Shown: positions 52-11,682 of the stretch, one piece after another | Numbering within the stretch: position 1 is the stretch's first letter | How the letters are laid out: the number at the start of each line of letters is the position of its first letter | Assembly (NCBI GenBank): GCA_009711805.1 | Contig: VEMX01000065.1 | Location: 1-50,567, forward strand | DNA from: Balneolaceae bacterium | GTDB lineage: Bacteria; Bacteroidota; Rhodothermia; Balneolales; Balneolaceae | Reading direction: 5' to 3' | Length of the DNA stretch: 50,567 bases | Notes under the pieces: generated by a model | What the model was told of the DNA's origin: nothing | Seen by the model: the letters and a program-made list of their open reading frames with translations, nothing else | The model's database searches: none | Translations under genes and position numbers: made by a program

Positions 52-138
52 TTTGGCCATGAGTTTTTGATGAAAAATACGAAACTCTAATCTTTATACC
101 CTAATTATTTAGTGGTAATAACACTAGGAGCATATACA

Positions 139-732
139 ATGAATTTTGGCATACTAATTAGTTATGTAATTGCGGGAATCTTAACGATTTCGATACTCAC
201 CGTGAGTTATAATATGTCGTATAATGCTACAGAGATGACGACAACGCAAATCAAGAAAGTCCATTCAAGGGCGGTCAATGATATTCTTACATTTGACATC
301 CCCAAAATAGGCTATCAATACAAGAGTACTTTAAGCACGAAGTTTGCAACAGCTGACAGTTCAGAAATTACTTTCTACGCCAACCTGGATAATAGTTTAG
401 ATAAGAGTGTGGAGACTATTACCTGGAAGTATACCGATCTGCCCTCTCCCGATTCAAAAAACCCGAACGACAATATTTTAAAGCGAACCGTAGATGGTGA
501 TGTTACAAATATTGAACTGGGTGTAACAAAATTTGAAATCCGATACTATGATGAACATGGAGGCAGTACACCAATGTCTACTCCTGTTAGTTCCTCCGAT
601 TTCGATAGTATAAAACAGATTGAAATAGAAATGGTTTTAGAAAGTAGTTACGAGGTCAATTACAGGGCTGGTCAAGAGAACTACGTCCAAACTACCTGGG
701 TAAAACGGTTTTCTCCCGTTAACCTCAGGTAA
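139..732 (+). CDS. PilW/GspJ-like minor pilin (copy 1)
   Basis: A 197-residue protein with one N-terminal hydrophobic helix (about residues 4-24) and a polar, beta-rich remainder. After the helix comes the segment ILTFDIPKIGY, which matches the D-x-x-x-x-GY signature of PilW/GspJ-type minor pilins. The protein at 2456 is a clear paralog with the same layout (NDMNRIGY, TVRWY/TITWKY, and a final VWKR/WVKR-F-P-N-L end). Minor pilins sit at the tip of type IV pili or type II pseudopili. There is no classical prepilin leader (G|FTLIE); the protein begins almost directly with its membrane helix. The ATG at 139 is preferred to the GTG at 112 because AGGAG at 126-130 is 8 bp upstream of it and because it aligns with the paralog's start. 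A TadE/G-like assignment is the alternative. Confidence 0.65.
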   Translation: MNFGILISYVIAGILTISILTVSYNMSYNATEMTTTQIKKVHSRAVNDILTFDIPKIGYQYKSTLSTKFATADSSEITFYANLDNSLDKSVETITWKYTDLPSPDSKNPNDNILKRTVDGDVTNIELGVTKFEIRYYDEHGGSTPMSTPVSSSDFDSIKQIEIEMVLESSYEVNYRAGQENYVQTTWVKRFSPVNLR

Positions 733-751
733 TTAATAAACCTATATTACT

Positions 752-1882
752 ATGGGAAGAGCAACAATTATTATAGCAACGGGAGCCATACTGGTTCTTG
801 GAATTCTTCAAATGGGAATGAATACAACCCGCAAGAGTATTGCGGAAGGTTCAGCCAGCTATGCGAACAACGTCCAAGTTCGTAATACTGCATTTACTGC
901 TTCTCAAATTGCCATGGAAAGAATCAACGAAAGTGCTGGTACATGGCATCCTACCGAAGGTTCACCCTGGTATGAGGAAATCGAAGGATACAATATCTCC
1001 CTTTACTATGAATTACTTCCCACATCAGCTTCTGGAGCCTTTTCTTCTCTGGAAGAAGATACCGTAATCATCCATACCGTTTCATACTACCTCAACTCGT
1101 TAACCGAACAGCAAGACTCTGTTGAACTTATAAATACATATACTAAAACGGCCCTTCATTTTGTACCAGAGTTCAAGTCGGCGCTTTCTTTTGCTACTGA
1201 TGACTTCACATTCTCGGTAGGAGGAAGCTCAAGTATTTCCGGGAATCCCCCTTCAGGATCATCTTGTGAGACAAAACCAGCCATTACCGTTATGGACGAT
1301 GGCTCCTTAATCAACGACGACTATAATGAAGTAACAAATGCGGACCCGTCAAGCACCCACTTTGAAAGTGACAGCACGGATGTGGCCATTGATCCTGAAT
1401 TAACGTATTCACCGGTAGATGAACTTATAGCTCGTTTATCCGAAATGGATGGTACCATAAGTATTTCAGGAAACTATAAAGGCACCATGGGTTCTGAAGA
1501 AAGTCCCGGAGTTTTCTTTGTAGAAGAAGATGCTAAATTGACGGGAGGTATTTCTGACGGTTATGGAATAATGGTGGTACGATCGGGAGGAGAGTTAGCC
1601 TATGACTCTTCAGGTGTTGAGCTTGATATTGCAGGTAACTTCACTTTTAACGGCTTAGTTGTATTTGAGGATGCCTACGAGCTCAAAGGCCGGGGTACAC
1701 CAACCATTAATGGTTCTGTTTTGGTTGGGCATACAGAGGATTCCTCATCCGGAACCATTAATGTAGACATGAGCGGTAATATAGCACTTCAATATGATTG
1801 TACCGCTGAAAAATATGCACAGCTTGCCTCAGCAAATCTACTGGATCAAAACAGGTATAAGCGATTAAGTACTTATGAGTAG
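752..1882 (+). CDS. PilX-like pilus assembly protein (copy 1)
   Basis: A 376-residue protein 19 bp after the PilW-like gene. Residues 4-22 form a membrane helix (MGRATIIIATGAILVLGI), followed by a PilX-N-like stretch with NNVQVRNTAFTASQIAMERI. The C-terminal half contains hydrophobic rungs separated by glycine and asparagine (ISGNYKG, ITGN-like LDIAGNFTFNGLVVFEDA, TINGSVLVGH), the beta-helix-like layout common at the C-terminus of PilX-type proteins. One cysteine pair (about residues 170 and 348) could form a disulfide. Its paralog is the gene at 3055, which shares the MGRA start and N-terminal organisation. The role, anchoring or capping a type IV-pilus-like fibre, is inferred from family and position. 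Confidence 0.6.
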   Translation: MGRATIIIATGAILVLGILQMGMNTTRKSIAEGSASYANNVQVRNTAFTASQIAMERINESAGTWHPTEGSPWYEEIEGYNISLYYELLPTSASGAFSSLEEDTVIIHTVSYYLNSLTEQQDSVELINTYTKTALHFVPEFKSALSFATDDFTFSVGGSSSISGNPPSGSSCETKPAITVMDDGSLINDDYNEVTNADPSSTHFESDSTDVAIDPELTYSPVDELIARLSEMDGTISISGNYKGTMGSEESPGVFFVEEDAKLTGGISDGYGIMVVRSGGELAYDSSGVELDIAGNFTFNGLVVFEDAYELKGRGTPTINGSVLVGHTEDSSSGTINVDMSGNIALQYDCTAEKYAQLASANLLDQNRYKRLSTYE

Positions 1883-2033
1883 ATTTTATACCCTCTCAAA
1901 AATCATCTAAGCACTGATTTTCATCTCTTTATTAAGATCCTCTTACATACTTTATTTTTTTTTAATGTAACAAACACTCATTCAGAACTCTTTTAGATTA
2001 GAGGCATCTAACAATTTTATACTTTAGATCTGT

Positions 2034-2456
2034 ATGAGTAATTACTCTGATATTTTATATCTAACGGTAGCAATGGTGGTATTTTCTATTTTAACCATCA
2101 ATACAGCCCGCAGTTTTCAATTTACCGCAGATACCTTAGTTCGAGCCGATCTTGAATATCGAGCTACTGCTATTGCACAAGATGAGATTGATCAGATTCG
2201 CTGGGAAACAGACGAGAATAAGTTAGATCCCGAGCATGATGATTATCTTTTTGATTCCTATCCCCAAAACCAGGCCATAACCTATGGTAATGAGAATGAA
2301 TATTCGGAAACCTTTAAGGTAAATGGAAAATCAACCCTTATTGAAAATACCTCAAGCATGAAGAGGTATAAAGTTACTATTACTACAACCAGTAATTCCA
2401 TCGACCCTAAAGTTGAAGTCTCACTGGAATTTATAAAATCATATATGCAAGAATAA
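2034..2456 (+). CDS. PilV/GspI-like minor pilin
   Basis: A 140-residue protein with an N-terminal hydrophobic helix at about residues 7-25, then a segment RATAIAQDEIDQIRWE that resembles the A-x-x-x-AQ-x-x-(D/E)-x-IR pattern of PilV/GspI minor pilins. It starts the second pilin module (V-W-X order, as in many type IV pilus minor-pilin operons). Its TAA overlaps the ATG of the PilW-like gene (TAATG), so the two are translationally coupled. It lacks a recognisable prepilin-peptidase site. The first module in this window has no visible PilV partner, unless it lies beyond the left edge. Function is inferred from order and weak motif similarity. Confidence 0.55.
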   Translation: MSNYSDILYLTVAMVVFSILTINTARSFQFTADTLVRADLEYRATAIAQDEIDQIRWETDENKLDPEHDDYLFDSYPQNQAITYGNENEYSETFKVNGKSTLIENTSSMKRYKVTITTTSNSIDPKVEVSLEFIKSYMQE

Positions 2457-3037
2457 TGAATGTAGGAATTGTAACAAGTTTTATAGTTGCTGGTCTCATG
2501 ATATTATCAATCATGGCCTTTAATCACTCTATATATACCTCCTCTGCAGAAACAACGATTACCACTATAAACCAAAACAATCTTGATAACCTGACAGAAA
2601 TTATTAGTAATGACATGAACAGGATTGGTTATAAAACAGGGTCTTCTGATAATTTTAATCATATCTATAGCCAGGATGTTGAGTTCCAGGGTGATATTTA
2701 TGACAACGACTCCCATGCTGTAACCACGGTCAGATGGTATCTTGACACATCCGATTCGGTGTCTACTACCACAAACTCAAATGATGTGTACTTAAAACGT
2801 ACCGGGCCAACCTCAGATGGCAGTATTTCCACATTAAAATATCCAGTTACTCATTTCGAATTAAAATATTTTGCAGGTGATGGAACTGAAACAACCAATA
2901 CCATCAATGTAAAAAGCATACAGGTTGAAGTTGTTATGGAATCCGGTGAGTACCATACCACAAGATCGGATGGTAAGAAACAATATCACCGAACAGTGTG
3001 GAAACGAACCTTCGTCCCTAATAACCTCAATTTCTAA
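2456..3037 (+). CDS. PilW/GspJ-like minor pilin (copy 2)
   Basis: A 193-residue paralog of the protein encoded at 139. It has an N-terminal membrane helix (residues 4-22), the NDMNRIGYKTG segment typical of PilW/GspJ proteins, and a beta-rich C-terminal domain ending in VWKRTFVPNNLNF, which mirrors the end of copy 1. Its start codon overlaps the stop of the PilV-like gene, so the reading frame is coupled to it. The PilX-like gene follows after 17 bp. Duplication of the W-X pair suggests either two alternative pilus tips or one tip complex with two W/X pairs. Confidence 0.65.
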   Translation: MNVGIVTSFIVAGLMILSIMAFNHSIYTSSAETTITTINQNNLDNLTEIISNDMNRIGYKTGSSDNFNHIYSQDVEFQGDIYDNDSHAVTTVRWYLDTSDSVSTTTNSNDVYLKRTGPTSDGSISTLKYPVTHFELKYFAGDGTETTNTINVKSIQVEVVMESGEYHTTRSDGKKQYHRTVWKRTFVPNNLNF

Positions 3038-3054
3038 ATTACAGGTATAGAATC

Positions 3055-4398
3055 ATGGGAAGAGCAATGCTACTTATTGTAACCGGGATGGTTGTAATTA
3101 CCGGAATTATTCAAGCTAATAACAATAGAAGAACGGCTATACTACCAGAACGATCCCAAGACTATTTTTATGAACAACAAGCAAGAAATGAATCCATAAG
3201 CTTAGTTGATAATGCCATTGAGTATTTAAAGAATGATAACGAATGGGAAGATTCCATAAGCACAGGTGAGCACTTTCAGGGATCTGGAAAACTATACAGC
3301 TACAGCTCCACCACTGTCCCGGATTCTATTAACCATAGTGTAGATCAATGGAATCAATATCGAGTCCTTTTATTCAGCACATCCGAATACAAAGGATATT
3401 CGGTGCAAACCGAGGTTTTAATGCAGCGTGATTCTTTTTCTAAATATTCCTACTTCACTGAATCAGAACTATCCAGCGGAGGAAATTCCATTTATTGGTA
3501 TACCGACGATGAGGTAACAGGCCCTGTTCACACCAATGGCACCTTTAAAATAGCAGGTACCCCAACCTTCCATGGCTTTGTTACAAGCCCAAATATGTAC
3601 GACTCTACATCAAGCAGCTCTAGTCCAAATCTTTATGGGGGGTCTGATTTTAATGCTCCTGAAAATAACAGTCTGCTTAATAGCAATGTAAATCAACAAG
3701 TTCAGAACCTTTCTTCTCAAGCATCTTCTGGAGGATTAAGATTTAACGAGCATAAAAAGCTTGAGTTTTATGTAGATGGAGATGATGGATATGTGCGCAC
3801 AAAATCAGTTCAAACCTATTCATGTGGGTATTATTACACCGAGACCTGTTACAGCTTTGCTACAGAATCAGATGATGATTCCTACCGTTTAAGTGACTAC
3901 AATGGCATTATAAGTGTTGATGGGCAAACTTTTGTTGACGGTACTGTAAAAGGGGAAGCAACGGTACATTCAACAAGTAAAATCCATATTATGGGAGATA
4001 TTCAGTACAATACAGACCCTCTTACCGACTCTAACTCCACAGACATTTTGGGTTTGGTAAGTGAAACTGATGTTGAAATTGATGAAGATGCACATACTGC
4101 TTCAGGATCTTCAGATATCGACATACAAGCTACAATCATGGCCCTTGATACCTCTTTTGGAGTCGAAGATTATTCATCTTCCGGTTTCAGAGGAAACATA
4201 AATTTGTTAGGAGGGATTATTCAGGTTCAAAGAGGAGCTGTAGGCACCTTTGGCGGATATTATGGGCAAACTGGTTACTCAAAAAATTATGTGTACGACA
4301 CTCGCCTTAGAGGCATGACCCCCCCACTTTTCCCAAGAGAAAGTATCTTCTCTATTGTGTATTGGAAAGACAAAGTAGTTAGCACCCCAGACAGTTAA
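3055..4398 (+). CDS. PilX-like / DUF4900-type pilus protein (copy 2)
   Basis: A 447-residue protein starting MGRAMLLIVTG with one N-terminal membrane helix, paralogous at the N-terminus to the gene at 752 but longer. The middle contains GPVHTNGTFKIAGTPTFHG, which strongly resembles the GPVHTNG repeat region of DUF4900-type proteins found beside type IV pilus genes. The last 100 residues have a rung-like pattern and a YDTRLRGMTPPLFPRE segment also typical of that group. Two close cysteines (CGYYYTETC) may form a disulfide. Likely a large minor pilin or pilus-tip protein exposed outside the cell. It ends 7 bp before the small secreted protein at 4406, so that gene is probably co-transcribed. 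Confidence 0.65.
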   Translation: MGRAMLLIVTGMVVITGIIQANNNRRTAILPERSQDYFYEQQARNESISLVDNAIEYLKNDNEWEDSISTGEHFQGSGKLYSYSSTTVPDSINHSVDQWNQYRVLLFSTSEYKGYSVQTEVLMQRDSFSKYSYFTESELSSGGNSIYWYTDDEVTGPVHTNGTFKIAGTPTFHGFVTSPNMYDSTSSSSSPNLYGGSDFNAPENNSLLNSNVNQQVQNLSSQASSGGLRFNEHKKLEFYVDGDDGYVRTKSVQTYSCGYYYTETCYSFATESDDDSYRLSDYNGIISVDGQTFVDGTVKGEATVHSTSKIHIMGDIQYNTDPLTDSNSTDILGLVSETDVEIDEDAHTASGSSDIDIQATIMALDTSFGVEDYSSSGFRGNINLLGGIIQVQRGAVGTFGGYYGQTGYSKNYVYDTRLRGMTPPLFPRESIFSIVYWKDKVVSTPDS

Positions 4399-4971: not shown

Positions 4972-5466
4972 GTGAAAAGAATATCATTCCTTTTTCTGCT
5001 GATTATCTCTTTTGCTGTTAGCTCCCATGCTCAGGAAATAAGTGGTATGAATATTGAAGTAACGGCAAATGTGATAGAATCTATTGAGCTCACCACTTTG
5101 CAGAATATGCAATTTGATGATATCCAACCCGGGCAAGAAGAACTCTCTATTAGCCCTATTCTCGACCCCAACGCAGGTCGCATGGTAGCCAAAGGAATAC
5201 CAGATGCTCGAATAAGACTCAGTTACCTAAAAGAATGGACCCTTACCAACGACAGAGACAATAGTACCCTTACATTTTACTATCAGCTGTCAGGCAATGA
5301 TCTTGAAAACCAAAGCAATTCAGAATTATTACAAGCCAACAACCGGAATCTTCAGTTTAATTCAGAAGGAGAATACTTCATATGGATTGGAGGTAGTGTA
5401 AATATCTCAAATGCTCAGCCTGGTAATTATGAAGGTGAATTCACTATAGAAATAGAATATATTTAA
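4972..5466 (+). CDS. DUF4402-type secreted subunit (divergent), candidate fimbrial minor subunit
   Basis: A 164-residue exported protein (signal peptide ending SSHAQ, cleavage near residue 21). The mature part has the IEVTANVIESIEL start and QFDDIQPG segment that correspond to the N-terminal strand and LxFG-x-(I/V)-x-(P/G) region of DUF4402 beta-sandwich proteins. It ends with PGNYEGEFTIEIEYI. This alternating hydrophobic terminal strand with a penultimate tyrosine parallels chaperone-usher pilus subunits. It is the first of four similar genes ahead of a PapD-like chaperone. The start is GTG, with AAGG about 7 bp upstream. It is the most divergent of the four, so it may be a tip or adaptor subunit (inference). 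Confidence 0.6.
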   Translation: MKRISFLFLLIISFAVSSHAQEISGMNIEVTANVIESIELTTLQNMQFDDIQPGQEELSISPILDPNAGRMVAKGIPDARIRLSYLKEWTLTNDRDNSTLTFYYQLSGNDLENQSNSELLQANNRNLQFNSEGEYFIWIGGSVNISNAQPGNYEGEFTIEIEYI

Positions 5467-5480
5467 CAAGCAGGGTTCCC

Positions 5481-6032
5481 ATGCTTCGACTCACCGCTTA
5501 TTTTTTTATTCTGCTCGCTTGCCTCTTTGATGAAGTTAATGCACAGGAAGTAAATTTTGGCCAATACGCCACCGAAGACATCATATTAACCAATATTGGG
5601 TCAAATTCTTCGCTCGACTTTGGACAAATCCTCTCTGGTCAGGGACTCACTCAGATAGCACTCTCAGATCCCGAAGTTGTTGTTTACAGTATACAGGCAG
5701 AGGCTGATAAAGATATATTTCTCACGCTATCAGCCCCCTCTAATTTACAACTTGATGCCAGTAACACAATACCTTTTACGTTACGAGCTGCTTATGCCAA
5801 CAAAGGCAATGATAACATAGCCCAGGCTGTATTAATAAGCGGAAGCTCTGCCCGATTTCCCGTTTTGGCAAGAGGCAATCAACCGCCGGGACCGCCGCCA
5901 GATCCAAAAGTTGAAGGAGATACTACACCTACTGCTACCGCTTACCTCTACCTTTATGGGGATCTCAGTGTTGGCAGCGTGGCATCAGGTGTTTATTCCG
6001 GCATCGTGAACATTACGGTCAGTTATGAATAA
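5481..6032 (+). CDS. DUF4402-type secreted subunit, candidate fimbrial minor subunit
   Basis: A 183-residue protein with a signal peptide ending in VNAQ (about residue 22). It contains SSLDFGQILSGQG, the LDFG region typical of DUF4402 proteins, and ends SGVYSGIVNITVSYE, again with tyrosine in the penultimate position. A proline-rich loop (NQPPGPPPDPK) interrupts the domain around residue 135-145. It is paralogous along its length to the next gene (both have AAY-N-G, AxxLY-x-YG and G-x-Y-x-G motifs). It lies 14 bp after the preceding subunit gene and 6 bp before the next. Likely role: a structural subunit delivered through the chaperone and usher encoded downstream. Confidence 0.6.
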   Translation: MLRLTAYFFILLACLFDEVNAQEVNFGQYATEDIILTNIGSNSSLDFGQILSGQGLTQIALSDPEVVVYSIQAEADKDIFLTLSAPSNLQLDASNTIPFTLRAAYANKGNDNIAQAVLISGSSARFPVLARGNQPPGPPPDPKVEGDTTPTATAYLYLYGDLSVGSVASGVYSGIVNITVSYE

Positions 6033-6038
6033 TACACT

Positions 6039-6557
6039 ATGAAAACCATTCTACTTAACATAGTACTTTTTCTTTCCATTGGTAGTGCAGATAGCTACGC
6101 CCAGTTTATTCACCTCCAAATAAATATAGAAACTGAAATGCGAGCTGATGTTATAGAAGAACTGGACTTTGGAACCGTAATCATTAACTCCGGACTTCGC
6201 CAAATAGACCGTGGAGACCCAAATATGGGAGTGTTCCAGCTTAGAGCATTAAAAAATCAAACACTTCTTGTTACTTTAAACAACCCTGAGCAACTGACTC
6301 ACTCCAATTTAAATGTGCCTGACTTAGTTCCTGTCAATCTTGAAGCAGCCTATAATAATACCGGTACCCAGAGTGCCAACAACGCAGTTCCGTTTGTAAA
6401 CAACCAAGCATCATTTAAACTAATAGGAACGGATGCTAACGACCCATCCAATCAATGGGAGTTTGCATATATTTTTATATATGGAGGGATAACCGTAGGA
6501 AATATTACCCCGGGAATGTATACCGGAACCCTTGTCATCGAGGTTGAATACCTTTAA
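6039..6557 (+). CDS. DUF4402-type secreted subunit, candidate fimbrial minor subunit
   Basis: A 172-residue exported protein (signal peptide ending SYAQ, near residue 22). The mature domain has EELDFGTVIINSG, the same LDFG signature as its neighbours, and closes with PGMYTGTLVIEVEYL, a terminal strand with penultimate tyrosine. It is a paralog of the gene immediately upstream. It is followed by an 88-bp gap that may carry a separate promoter for the next subunit. No cysteines are seen, so the fold would be stabilised by donor-strand complementation if it is a true fimbrial subunit (inference). Confidence 0.6.
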   Translation: MKTILLNIVLFLSIGSADSYAQFIHLQINIETEMRADVIEELDFGTVIINSGLRQIDRGDPNMGVFQLRALKNQTLLVTLNNPEQLTHSNLNVPDLVPVNLEAAYNNTGTQSANNAVPFVNNQASFKLIGTDANDPSNQWEFAYIFIYGGITVGNITPGMYTGTLVIEVEYL

Positions 6558-6645
6558 GCGTTACTTAAATGATTAAGAGACTCTAACTTTTTTAAGTTAA
6601 TTCATCAATGTATTTTTCATCCAAACATAAATAACTCAACTACCC

Positions 6646-7182
6646 ATGAAACGATTATTCTCTTTTTTAACAGCTCTTGTTTTAATTTCCGTTTTCAGCA
6701 TAGATGCTTTTGCGCAAGGTACCGACAATGATGCGATGACAGCTACAGCAAGTGTTATTGCTCCGGTAAATGTTACAGCCGGTACTACATTAGATTTCGG
6801 CGAAGTTGTGCCAAATGTAAATAAAACTGTAAACGTTAGTGGAAGTGGTAATGATGCTGATGTTGCTATAGGTGACTTTACTGTAACAGGTGAGACTGGA
6901 AACACAGTACAGCTTTCTTTTACTGCACTAAATGACCTTACGGATGGCGGCAGTAACACACTGACTATAGACTATAACAATACTAACTATGCAGCTTATT
7001 TCCCAAGCTCAGGTTCTTATGCTATTGACGGTACTGACTTTAACCCTTCATCTTCAACCCCAACAGTTACTTTAGTTGGTGGTTCTGTAGATGTATTAAT
7101 CGGTGGTGAAGCTCAACCAGGCGCCAGTCAAGCAGGCGGAACTTATACTGGTACTATTACACTGACTGCGACGTATAACTAA
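6646..7182 (+). CDS. DUF4402 secreted protein, candidate major fimbrial subunit
   Basis: A 178-residue protein, the most typical DUF4402 member of the set. It has a signal peptide ending DAFAQ (residue 24), then TATASVIAPVNVTAGTTLDFG, FTVTGETGNTVQLSF, and a GTYTGTITLTATYN end with penultimate tyrosine. The mature protein is rich in Thr, Gly, Asn, Ser and nearly devoid of Lys and Arg, as expected for an abundant surface polymer. It has its own 88-bp upstream gap and is followed by a perfect hairpin terminator, so it can be made in excess over the chaperone and usher. That layout is typical of a major pilin gene. The role as main shaft subunit is inference from composition and position. Confidence 0.7.
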   Translation: MKRLFSFLTALVLISVFSIDAFAQGTDNDAMTATASVIAPVNVTAGTTLDFGEVVPNVNKTVNVSGSGNDADVAIGDFTVTGETGNTVQLSFTALNDLTDGGSNTLTIDYNNTNYAAYFPSSGSYAIDGTDFNPSSSTPTVTLVGGSVDVLIGGEAQPGASQAGGTYTGTITLTATYN

Positions 7183-7241: not shown

Positions 7242-7321
7242 GATTTCGGAATAAATCTTAGTTCGTGGTTTTTATAATTAAAATTCTTAGGTTAGTTAAA
7301 AGAATAAATTATCCCAAATGT

Positions 7322-8146
7322 ATGCTTAAGAGACTTTTTGTTTCACTTTTTTTTCTTTTTTGTTCCGTCACTGCCCTTTACGCACAGATCACAATAGCAC
7401 CTATAATGCTATTTATCGATGATCAAGACCGCTTTGCCTCTTTGCTTATCATGAATGGATCCAGTGAAGTACAAGAAGTTACCATTGAATTCCCTTTCGG
7501 TTATCCATTAACAACTGATATGGGGGAGATAGAAATGGTATATGACGACTCCGTTACAGCAAATCGGCATGGAATAAGTGACAGAATAAGAGCATTTCCG
7601 AGAAATTTCACACTTCAACCTAATCAAAGACAAATAGTTCGATTAACTATTGCTCCGGGAAATTTTGAACCCGGCACCTACTGGTCCAGAATTAAAACCA
7701 CTTCTTCTCCCCAATCCCCCCCTATTGGAGAAACAGGCAATGACCAGGTAACCACTCAGATTACATACAACTTCGAGCAGATAACAACAGTTTTCTATAA
7801 AAAAGGCAACGTTACTACAGGATTGAACCTAATGGATATTTCTGCTGGGCAAAATGAAGATTTTATTTGGGTTAAAACTGATTTGGAACGAACAGGTAAT
7901 TCTCCATTCCTTGGAAGCGCCTATTTAACGGTTATAGATGACAATGGCAATGAAGTACTAAGTCGCAGAACTTCAGTATCTATTTATTTTGACTATACAC
8001 AAGCATTTAAAATACGACCAACTGAACTACCAGCAGGCGAATACCAGGCAGAAATCAGGTTTGTTTCTCAGCGGTCTGATATACCAGATACCGAGATAGT
8101 TGAGACAGAACCTGTGTCTCAGTCTATTACATTTACAGTAAGGTGA
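7322..8146 (+). CDS. PapD-like periplasmic fimbrial chaperone
   Basis: A 274-residue protein with a signal peptide ending LYAQ (near residue 22). The mature N-terminus ITIAPIMLFIDDQDRFASL matches the I-x-P-x-x-x-x-x-(D/E)-x-x-R-x-(A/G)-x-(L/V) start of archaic or spore-coat-U-type chaperones. The segment IRAFPRNFTLQPNQRQIVRL is the hallmark P-R-x-(F/V)-x-L-x-P-G-x-x-Q-x-(V/I)-R strand, and GTYWSRIK matches their G-E-Y-x-S-x-(L/I). Such chaperones fold and cap pilus subunits in the periplasm. The ATG at 7322 places the signal peptide at the very N-terminus; a GTG-type start further upstream (7265) would put a basic stretch ahead of it and is less likely. The stop overlaps the GTG of the usher by 4 bp, indicating coupling. 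Confidence 0.8.
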   Translation: MLKRLFVSLFFLFCSVTALYAQITIAPIMLFIDDQDRFASLLIMNGSSEVQEVTIEFPFGYPLTTDMGEIEMVYDDSVTANRHGISDRIRAFPRNFTLQPNQRQIVRLTIAPGNFEPGTYWSRIKTTSSPQSPPIGETGNDQVTTQITYNFEQITTVFYKKGNVTTGLNLMDISAGQNEDFIWVKTDLERTGNSPFLGSAYLTVIDDNGNEVLSRRTSVSIYFDYTQAFKIRPTELPAGEYQAEIRFVSQRSDIPDTEIVETEPVSQSITFTVR

Positions 8147-11100
8147 ATGACTATCGTTTATGGCTTGTACTCCTTTTTTTACTGCTCCCACTTCACTTAA
8201 CAGGAGCAGCAAGCCCCTTTTTCCCTAATAATTCCCCTTCTACCGAAGAACCTTATGAGGTTTTCCTTTCTTTCAACTACAAAAACCTTTTCAATAATGT
8301 AGTAATAGCCTATTATGATGAAGGGGATTACTACCTCCCTGTTTCTCAAATATTTTCTCTCTTGAAAATAAAACATGCGGTTTCATCTTCTCCGCCAGCT
8401 GTTTCTGGTAGTTTTTTGGATGCTAATAATACATTTTACCTCGATTTTGAAACTCTGACTATTTCCTTAAAAGAAAAAGGAGAATTCTCTATAGAACAGG
8501 TGGATTTAATACTAGGTGAAACTGACTACTATCTGGAAAGCTCCATTTTTAATGAAGTATTTGGGTTAAACTTCACTGTAGATTTTAACAATCTGGTACT
8601 ACATCTCGAATCTGAAAATGAACTCCCTGTTTATTCTCAATACCTTCGGAAAGAAAGAAGACAAAAGACGAACAGGTATTCTATTACCAGAGAGTATTAT
8701 GATTTGAAATTTTACAGAGAAAGAAAAATAGTAGCAGGCGGCTTCCTTGATTACTCTTTAACAACTCATATAAGCGAAGATGATCTCTTGTACGCCTATA
8801 GCACAAATATTGGGGGTGAAATACTCGGAGGCGATGTTCAAGGGTCTATAAATGGAAATTTCAGTAAAGAAAACTCCAATTTTCTTACCAATAACTTGCG
8901 TTGGAGGTATGTTGACCAAAATAACCCTTACTTCAGCCAAATATTTGCTGGTCAAAGCAGCACCGAGGGTTTATACTCACGGGCAATAACCGGAATAAGA
9001 ATAACAAATGATCCTATTGTCCCTCGTTTTATTTTTGATGAAGTCGAAATTCAGGGAGCAGTAGAACCAGGTTCAGAAGTAGAATTATACTTTAATGACG
9101 CTCTCTACGATTTCCAAAATGTAAATCAGGATGGAAAATATCGATTTATTGCCCCTCTCACTTTTGGAACATCCCGGTTACGTTTGCAGATTTATGATCC
9201 TGCGGGAAGTATGCGTCAACAGCTAAAAAATATTCAAATACCTTATCGTTTCCTTCCCCCTGGTAAAACCATCTATAATGCGAGCCTGGGTAGATTGGAC
9301 TCCCCTATTTTAGGAGCATTGAGTGATAATTACCTGGCTCAGGGAGAGGTAGGTTACGGTATCAATAATTGGCTTACTCAAAAGCTGGGCGCTGAGTATA
9401 TCACAGACACAGAGTTAAGACGCTCTACCCTCCTATACAGTTCTACTTCTCTTCGCATATCCCAGGGGTACCTCGTAAACCTGGATATAGCCCCCGCTGC
9501 ATTTTATCGGTTTTCAACCAGTAGCATATTACCTTCTTCTGCAAGCTGGGATATAGACTATTCATACTATACAGCTTCTGAACATATATATAACAACCTC
9601 GACCTGGATCAGGAATTGAATGCATCCTTTTATTTGCCTGTTCAACTTTTTAAAAATGATGTAAACCTTCGTTTTACGACCAATAGCATTTCAAGGGGCG
9701 ACTATTATAGGAATAGATATAACATTGATTTAAACAGCCGAATAAACCGATTCAATGTGCGGTTTAATTACAGTGATACAAAAATAAAAACCTTTAGTCT
9801 TTCTCCTTCAAATGCCGCTGAATTATCTTCATCACTCAGCTATTTTGTTCCAAAAACATCTCCTCTTCCCAAGGCGTTACACGGCTTTTTGTTCAGAGGA
9901 GAAATCGCCTTTAATCCATCTTCCAACGAACTTACCGGTGTACGGTCTTTAATAGCTAAAGACTTTCTGGCAGATGGACGTATTCAGGTCTCTTACGCTA
10001 AAAATCTGATTAGTGATTATACTTTTTTCAATGTGGGACTGTCTTTTGATCTCGATCGTGTCCGCTCTTCTTCCTCGGCCATTCACTCCGCCAGAGGATC
10101 TGGGTTTAAACAAAATTTTCTTGGGTCTGTGGGTTTTGATCCACACAACTCAAAATTCATCCTATCCAACAGAAGACAAGTTAATCAGGCGGGAGCAGCA
10201 GTTAAGTTATTTGTTGATAACAATAATAACGAACGTTTTGATGAGGAAGACACTGTGATCAAAGACAATGCTATCCGCATAGGCAGATCAGGGAAATCCA
10301 GATTTACCAGCGATGGAACTATTTATATAAGTCAGTTACAAGCATACCATCAGGTTAACCTGGAAATAAACAAAGGAGCATTGCGGAATCCCTTGATAGT
10401 ACCTCAATTTGAACAGTTCTCTTTTATTGCTCCTCCCAATCAATACAAAAGAATTGAAATACCATTTTATACTTCCGGAGTAATATCAGGTAACGTAAAA
10501 CGAATATACAATGGTAAACAAAAAGGAATAGCCGGTTTACGTATGTATTTGGTACCACAAACCGATTCTGTAACTTCAACAGAATTAGAAACCAAGCAGA
10601 TCCCTACTTTTTCAGATGGCTCTTTTTATGCATATGAGATCAGGCCCGGAAAGTATTATTTATTTCCTGATCCAAACCAACTCGATTTCCTTAATATGAT
10701 ATCTAAACCTGATTCTATGGATATTGAAATTGAAGCACTTGCGCAGGGCGATTTTGTAGAAGGGTTGAATTTCAAATTGGAGGATCGAACCTTACAAAAT
10801 CAACCTGCTTTAAACCAAAATATTGAAACCAAAGACATCGGCGCCCCTGGTAATGAAAAACAGCGTAAAGATAACAGTGGAACCACGCTGAGTATTGGAT
10901 ACAATATTTCCGTTGACAGCCTTCAAACTACCGAATGCAATTATCACCTCCAATATGGTGGCTATGATACCCCAGGCCAGGCTTTAGCAATTATACAAAC
11001 TGATAGTAATAATGTGTACTATAACAACCAAAGCAAGCAATATTTTAGCTGGGAAAATTCTTTTTCCACACTTGGAAATACGGCACATCATATACGCAAC

Positions 11101-11682
11101 AATGGGCTTAATACAGCCTCTGTAGTAGAACAGTGTAATACATTCACTCCTGCTTCTCCTTCGGAGGAAGATCTTGCCAATGAAGCTTATTTCTTGCAAT
11201 ATGGAGCCTTCAAAAACCAAAGTGATGCCAACACGTTAAAACGGCAGCTAAATAATCTTCACGGAATACGTACACATGTCACTGCTGATCCTGAAAACAA
11301 TTTCTACAAAGTTCGATCAGCCCCCTTCCCCAGCCGTGAAGAAGCCAATAATCAGAAGGAAGAAATCCTTTCATCTACCTCTCTTGCGGAAGATGGTATT
11401 TTCCTGACAAAAGGATCCATTACTTCTGGAATACAGTCATTTAATCCATCCTATCAGCTACAGCTGGGACTATTCGAATCTACCCGAAAAGCAACGCTTT
11501 ATGCCATACGGTTGGATGAAGTGTTTAACCTGCGTTCCAGGGTTGTTATAGATCAAAACCAACAGGTACTCCTATATATTGAACAGGACTTCAGTCGCTG
11601 GGAAGAGGCCGCATCTGTACAAAAAGCTATTTCTGGTGATGAATCATTTCAGCCGCCGATTATACATACTACTATAAAATAA
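8143..11682 (+). CDS. Outer-membrane fimbrial usher with three C-terminal SPOR-like repeats
   Basis: A 1179-residue exported protein (signal peptide to about residue 21) starting at a GTG that overlaps the chaperone stop. Residues about 35-140 form an N-terminal domain with NNVVIAYYDEGDYYLPVSQI, like the subunit-binding N-domain of archaic ushers. Residues about 180-680 are rich in alternating beta strands. They include a plug-like section (about 300-380) with GAVEPGSEVELYFNDAL and GKYRFIAPLTFGTSRLRLQI. At about 690-760, KLFVDNNNNERFDEEDTVI followed by DGTIYISQLQAY resembles the F-x-D-x-N-x-(N/G)-x-x-D-x-x-(D/E) C-domain of such ushers. After residue 900 there are three SPOR-like repeats: about 934-990 (YHLQYGGYDT), 1014-1080 (YFLQYGAFKNQSDANTLKRQ, best match), and 1104-1160 (YQLQLGLFES). 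SPOR domains bind denuded peptidoglycan strands, so this usher may be tethered to the wall. The fusion is unusual. Confidence 0.75.
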   Translation: MNDYRLWLVLLFLLLPLHLTGAASPFFPNNSPSTEEPYEVFLSFNYKNLFNNVVIAYYDEGDYYLPVSQIFSLLKIKHAVSSSPPAVSGSFLDANNTFYLDFETLTISLKEKGEFSIEQVDLILGETDYYLESSIFNEVFGLNFTVDFNNLVLHLESENELPVYSQYLRKERRQKTNRYSITREYYDLKFYRERKIVAGGFLDYSLTTHISEDDLLYAYSTNIGGEILGGDVQGSINGNFSKENSNFLTNNLRWRYVDQNNPYFSQIFAGQSSTEGLYSRAITGIRITNDPIVPRFIFDEVEIQGAVEPGSEVELYFNDALYDFQNVNQDGKYRFIAPLTFGTSRLRLQIYDPAGSMRQQLKNIQIPYRFLPPGKTIYNASLGRLDSPILGALSDNYLAQGEVGYGINNWLTQKLGAEYITDTELRRSTLLYSSTSLRISQGYLVNLDIAPAAFYRFSTSSILPSSASWDIDYSYYTASEHIYNNLDLDQELNASFYLPVQLFKNDVNLRFTTNSISRGDYYRNRYNIDLNSRINRFNVRFNYSDTKIKTFSLSPSNAAELSSSLSYFVPKTSPLPKALHGFLFRGEIAFNPSSNELTGVRSLIAKDFLADGRIQVSYAKNLISDYTFFNVGLSFDLDRVRSSSSAIHSARGSGFKQNFLGSVGFDPHNSKFILSNRRQVNQAGAAVKLFVDNNNNERFDEEDTVIKDNAIRIGRSGKSRFTSDGTIYISQLQAYHQVNLEINKGALRNPLIVPQFEQFSFIAPPNQYKRIEIPFYTSGVISGNVKRIYNGKQKGIAGLRMYLVPQTDSVTSTELETKQIPTFSDGSFYAYEIRPGKYYLFPDPNQLDFLNMISKPDSMDIEIEALAQGDFVEGLNFKLEDRTLQNQPALNQNIETKDIGAPGNEKQRKDNSGTTLSIGYNISVDSLQTTECNYHLQYGGYDTPGQALAIIQTDSNNVYYNNQSKQYFSWENSFSTLGNTAHHIRNNGLNTASVVEQCNTFTPASPSEEDLANEAYFLQYGAFKNQSDANTLKRQLNNLHGIRTHVTADPENNFYKVRSAPFPSREEANNQKEEILSSTSLAEDGIFLTKGSITSGIQSFNPSYQLQLGLFESTRKATLYAIRLDEVFNLRSRVVIDQNQQVLLYIEQDFSRWEEAASVQKAISGDESFQPPIIHTTIK

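Follow-up and report, generated by a model that had tools for sequence, protein, structure and literature searches.

A Balneolaceae usher gene with three C-terminal SPOR domains suggests a pilus platform tethered to peptidoglycan

Chaperone-usher pili are viewed as passive fibres seated on an outer-membrane pore, and the load-bearing of their base has been little studied. The window, as we call the whole stretch of 50,567 nucleotides of a Balneolaceae bacterium analysed here, holds a gene in which an usher appears to continue into domains of a peptidoglycan-binding type, and the question is what such a tail does on a pilus assembly platform. The gene is a continuous open frame for a single protein of 1179 amino acids. 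As the first-pass annotation had claimed, usher and three SPOR domains are joined in this one frame, and both the usher fold and the three SPOR folds were recovered from structure models. Misassembly of two genes is ruled out, since this fusion is found again in numerous independent assemblies; the search for this architecture in Balneolota returned SPOR-tailed ushers from dozens of genomes, mostly of Balneolota and other Bacteroidota.

Four DUF4402 or DUF4402-like genes (4972-7182) lie 5' of a putative chaperone gene and the usher (Table 1). A gene for the putative chaperone is found immediately 5' of almost all related ushers; the window copy gave neither a PapD profile match nor a PDB sequence match in profile and PDB sequence searches. 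The chaperone and pilin identities are assigned mostly by context and are therefore given as putative. Further upstream, positions 112-4398 encode small N-terminally anchored proteins in a fixed order, the third of which begins MGRAMLII and matches DUF4900. They look like pseudopilin-type components, and similar sets occur 5' of the usher in the related loci L075, L076 and L082, in both SPOR-type and motor-type loci (see below).

Table 1. Positions of the usher-SPOR gene, its domains and the neighbouring putative pilus genes in the window.
Feature	Position	Strand	Basis or remark
Putative pilin, DUF4402	4972..5466	+	Pfam 1.6e-5
Putative pilin, DUF4402-like	5481..6032	+	Pfam, weak
Putative pilin, DUF4402-like	6039..6557	+	Pfam, under cut-off
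Putative pilin, DUF4402	6646..7182	+	Pfam 2.8e-9
Putative periplasmic chaperone, 277 residues, secreted; overlaps usher start	7313..8146	+	Context and motif only
Usher-SPOR gene, 1179 aa	8143..11682	+	Continuous frame and structure model
Predicted N-terminal periplasmic domain, residues 38-160	8254..8622	+	Strands and high pLDDT in the model
Outer-membrane beta-barrel, residues 191-666	8713..10140	+	Z 22-23 to PapC and FimD translocation pores
Probable plug domain inside barrel, residues 312-366	9076..9240	+	Strand block breaking the barrel strands; analogy with PapC/FimD
Usher-core C-terminal beta-sandwich domains, residues 671-880	10153..10782	+	Model residue 879 aligned to FimD 833
Linker, residues 881-931	10783..10935	+	Low confidence, pLDDT <50
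SPOR repeat 1 (R1), residues 932-999; Gln937; bracketed by C932 and C998	10936..11139	+	Profile-profile, model
SPOR repeat 2 (R2), canonical, residues 1014-1092; Gln1019	11182..11418	+	Pfam, profile, model, superposition
SPOR repeat 3 (R3), divergent, residues 1102-1179; Gln1107	11446..11679	+	Profile-profile, model

A full-length AlphaFold2 model was built from 67 aligned sequences (mean pLDDT 81). Residues 191-879 were modelled as an outer-membrane usher, with a VIA Z of 24.4 to FimD (9fw9) over 607 residues and a Foldseek E of 1.2e-28. In VIA, FimD and PapC scored Z 20-24 and the PapC pore 22.5, while the next unrelated barrels scored about 15.6. Like FimD and PapC, the predicted protein has a barrel, a probable plug and C-terminal domains, with putative pilin and chaperone-like genes upstream, but the sequence identity is only 11-15%. 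No match to Pfam Usher (PF00577) was obtained even at E 10, and this family matches 2 of 40 close relatives, the best at 3.4e-8. Judged by its modelled fold, the window protein is thus a remote usher homologue that Pfam Usher does not match. The alignment stops at FimD residue 833, which corresponds to model residue 879. FimD itself ends there and has no SPOR tail, so residues 881-1179 are an addition past the usher C-terminal domains.

The three repeat starts listed in the first-pass annotation were found at residues 934 (YHLQYGGY, nt 10942), 1016 (YFLQYGAF, nt 11188) and 1104 (YQLQLGLF, nt 11452). Its description of the middle repeat as a good SPOR domain was borne out, R2 matching Pfam SPOR (PF05036) over residues 1013-1074 with E 3e-15 and 56.8 bits against a cut-off of 21 bits; the profile search it had proposed was positive for this repeat only, as R1 and R3 gave no PF05036 match. 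Both could nevertheless be linked to R2 by family profiles, with 97.7% probability for R1 (E 1.9e-12) and 97.1% for R3 (E 6.4e-11), compared to maxima of 1.6% (R1) and 7.8% (R3) among 100 column-shuffled profiles each. The top PDB match of the R1 profile was the SPOR domain of CwlC (E 0.0017), and those of the R2 profile were CwlC (1.5e-7) and the RlpA SPOR domain. R1 was of low confidence in the full-length model and was resolved using an alignment of the C-terminus. The resulting C-terminal AlphaFold2 model (mean pLDDT 86.4) shows the RNP-like beta-alpha-beta-beta-alpha-beta order in all three repeats. R2 superposes on RlpA SPOR with Z 9.2 (73 of 76 residues, 3.0 A) and also on the SPOR domains of CwlC, DedD and DamX. 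Two-domain ferredoxin-like structures of ACT/RRM type took the top Foldseek ranks by E-value for the C-terminus as an effect of the tandem alpha-beta repeat, and per-domain alignment ranks SPOR structures first. These results confirm that the tail consists of three SPOR folds, R2 being canonical and R1 and R3 divergent.

In RlpA, FtsN and DamX, a glutamine contacts the glycan (Q270, Q251 and Q351, respectively; PMC6895207). This strand 1 residue is kept in all three repeats (Q937, Q1019 and Q1107); among related SPOR domains, a simple motif could be located in 104, and 78 of these have the glutamine. In R2, a KVR motif additionally aligns with the basic residue pair of RlpA. The sequences of R1 and R3 are without such basic residues, so it may be that only R2 binds glycan. 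C932 and C998, the sole cysteines of the window usher, flank R1, and relatives mostly have either the same pair, at a spacing of about 66-76, or no such pair. From the sequence, the pattern is what would be expected for a disulfide in an oxidising compartment, and it recalls C252-C312 of FtsN, where wall binding correlates with the formation of a disulfide linking two SPOR cysteines (PMC6895207).

The C-terminal domains of ushers are periplasmic, and the tail should therefore be so too. Since the usher fold ends at FimD's own C-terminus, the SPOR block would hang from the periplasmic side, which agrees with the earlier proposal that docking of the repeats on peptidoglycan is plausible. We consider that the window usher is probably a chaperone-usher pilus platform with a built-in peptidoglycan tether to the sacculus. 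The core, up to about residue 880, would form a pore in the outer membrane and assemble DUF4402-type pilins brought by the putative chaperone encoded upstream. The linker would let the three SPOR domains reach from the periplasmic C-terminal domains to the sacculus, with R2 at least binding glycan strands poor in stem peptides. Such a tether would hold the pilus base against pulling forces by passing load to the sacculus, and it may also cause platforms to gather at sites rich in denuded glycan. Counting against the tether are the missing basic residues of R1 and R3, an usher assignment by fold without Pfam Usher, and the existence of tailless ushers.

The usher was present in 42 of 58 sampled genomes of the GTDB family of the window, and 94 of 394 genomes of a phylum sample had a match. 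A scan of named genomes gave 80 loci, mostly from Balneolota and other Bacteroidota. Outside Bacteroidota, some MAG labels probably reflect binning errors: the usher contigs L102, L103 and L104 are labelled archaeal, Cloacimonadota or actinobacterial and have similar isolate names (CSSed), and L102 and L104, placed by the tree among sequences of Bacteroidota, are probably such cases. Tails were of several types: SPOR (1 to 5 copies), TPR, OmpA or none. Several groups (Algoriphagus, several Bacteroidales) have the usher core, about 870 residues long, as a complete protein by itself. Because the core occurs tailless in 16 loci, each with at least 1.5 kb of downstream sequence, the tail is an add-on, and anchoring would not be essential for pilus assembly. 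At the SPOR position, four loci have an OmpA domain instead, above the Pfam cut-off in L141, L148 and L174 and by a local profile in L176; these four ushers form one clade. OmpA-family domains are known to bind stem peptides across the whole sacculus. Two unrelated wall-binding folds at one position suggest that the tail serves to hold peptidoglycan, and this exchange is the strongest argument for such a function that the sequences offer.

The core of the window protein groups with L036-L038 (support 100), and its SPOR triplet groups with those of L040, L076, L039 and others (support 98). This is a hint, tentative given the long branches, that the tail was swapped by recombination. Other TPR-like array tails were seen in L166 (3065-6883), where a SPOR-like end follows the array, and in L168 (3028-6618), both without the motor genes described next.

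Every TPR-tailed usher gene is followed, without a change of strand, by a gene whose product is of secreted-then-membrane type and similar to FliF_C and FliG_N/M/C. In complete loci this FliFG gene is followed by genes for a TPR lipoprotein related to the usher TPR, a MotA/ExbB protein and a MotB-plug/OmpA protein, with tightly spaced or overlapping ORFs. One such cassette, L084:10846-15853, is composed of FliF/FliG-like, TPR lipoprotein, MotA and MotB (OmpA, often with three SPOR) genes directly 3' of a TPR-tailed usher, and an equivalent stretch is present in 25 TPR-type loci, e.g. L082, L091, L108, L122, L128, L132 and L161. Among distinct loci with enough downstream sequence, the FliF/FliG-like gene lay directly 3' of the usher in 25/25 TPR loci versus 0/75 others (SPOR 0/43, none 0/16, other 0/13, OmpA 0/3), in automatic classes of which "other" includes some members that carry SPOR as well as L148, which carries OmpA by Pfam. 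Genome-wide, usher-linked FliFG genes and close FliFG homologues were seen only next to TPR-tailed ushers. On a FastTree phylogeny of 110 usher cores, with long branches, the TPR state changes 14 times with the motor changing alongside, and 12 of 12 independent contrasts agree. Beyond the usher locus lies the same pdhC gene whether the module is SPOR (18 loci) or motor (10 loci), which means that these genomes have one or the other at a single chromosomal position. Two TPR-type loci, L058:293-4606 (G044) and L162:7931-12457 (G152), have truncated or missing motor genes, L058 retaining a FliFG remnant of 224 aa and no MotA/MotB before pdhC; they are possibly decaying intermediates or draft errors. 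No motor cassette was found in the window genome, where the search returned just a normal flagellar FliG and a single MotB-plug gene of an ordinary flagellar cluster.

The MotB-like protein also bears on the tail. In 14 distinct Balneolaceae loci it ends, beside its OmpA domain, in a SPOR triplet related to that of the usher; some MotB proteins of motor cassettes are without SPOR. The stator Asp, read by eye, is retained in 29 of the 29 MotB-like proteins listed. A single branch (support 99, 1 change) divides the usher triplets from the MotB triplets; as separate clades, they point to a triplet that was shared once and not traded repeatedly. An in-frame loss or gain of the cassette leaving one orthologous SPOR triplet was rejected in its simple form, as the two sets are not intermixed. 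A cassette without an usher was found in L155:9631-14687, L156:5127-10386, L157:8514-13564 and L158:5689-10699, in the order FliFG-like, secreted protein of about 360-390 aa, TPR lipoprotein, MotA and MotB(OmpA); by sequence, it is likely a related non-flagellar motor.

The first-pass annotation had proposed that the repeats mainly target the usher to denuded glycan at the septum or new poles, so that pili would be placed at division sites. In its favour, R2 is canonical, denuded glycan at the septum is what the SPOR domains of characterised proteins recognise (PMC6895207), and an Amidase_3 enzyme that could produce such glycan is encoded in the genome; a septal localisation of the usher is accordingly possible. 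As the main function, however, targeting seems unlikely: relatives have in this place OmpA domains, which are not known to mark the septum, two of the three repeats have diverged at the basic binding positions, and a stator protein with a homologous triplet speaks for anchoring. The four OmpA tails and the MotB-like triplet thus fit a mechanical anchor better. Less likely still is an RNP-fold scaffold that does not bind peptidoglycan, for instance an usher gating or chaperone-docking element. The divergence of R1 and R3 could be read in this way, and a fold alone is no proof of glycan binding, but the glutamine is conserved in all three repeats, R2 scores above the Pfam SPOR cut-off, and what replaces SPOR is OmpA, a different wall binder.

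The periplasmic wall tether also gains, by analogy, from the MotB-like stator, whose known counterpart needs wall anchoring. A broader reading contains the tether and goes further: the usher C-terminus in Bacteroidota would be a port for force, static when SPOR or OmpA connects it to the wall, as in the window usher, and active when TPR connects it to a FliFG/MotAB motor. The strict association of TPR tails with the FliF/FliG-like gene, its agreement over the tree and genome-wide, the compact cassettes, the retained stator Asp and the pdhC flank common to both types speak for it. On the other hand, operon co-occurrence does not show contact or torque, SPOR is absent from some MotB proteins, the usher-free cassette indicates that the motor has other uses, and the window genome is without a cassette. 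Overall, we regard this wider proposal as tentative and rather less probable than not; for the TPR-tailed sister state, coupling to a rotary motor is a strong lead, as yet unproven.

Each of these domain families is already known. P-usher CupB3 of Pseudomonas aeruginosa is also an usher with an extra fused domain, in that case a POTRA-like one with a role in TpsA secretion instead of wall binding. PilQ with its AMIN and TsaP with its LysM domain are outer-membrane machines tied to the wall via a periplasmic binding domain. A chaperone-usher component fused to a translocator domain is mentioned in PMC4793230, and YeeJ is a peptidoglycan-anchored surface machine (PMC5595812). Unlike the window protein, none of PilQ, TsaP and YeeJ is a chaperone-usher platform, and their wall-binding domains are unrelated. 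RlpA, DamX, DedD, FtsN and CwlC share with the tail the SPOR fold (R2 Z up to 9.2), the glutamine and the KVR of R2, but the window protein differs from them in having three SPOR domains in tandem at the end of a pilus usher. Known SPOR proteins have roles in division or morphogenesis (PMC6895207). The open-access literature searched held no description of an usher-SPOR fusion, in line with the first-pass annotation, nor anything relevant on usher-OmpA wall anchoring or on rotor and stator components of flagellar type next to a pilus usher, although such absence is weak evidence.

With ushers that carry their own wall-binding domains, the load-bearing of the pilus base becomes directly testable. 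The repeated exchange of the tail for another wall binder, or for another tail together with a motor gene set, suggests a mechanical link between these pili and the cell wall. Its alternation with the motor cassette raises the possibility that some pili are moved actively, which, if true, would add a new type of motor-driven structure to the cell surface. If the C-terminus is indeed a port for force, a chaperone-usher pilus of the TPR-tailed sister genomes would be driven by an ion-powered FliF/FliG-MotA/MotB rotary motor, and the motor-linked usher operon, which is absent from the window, could be categorically new.
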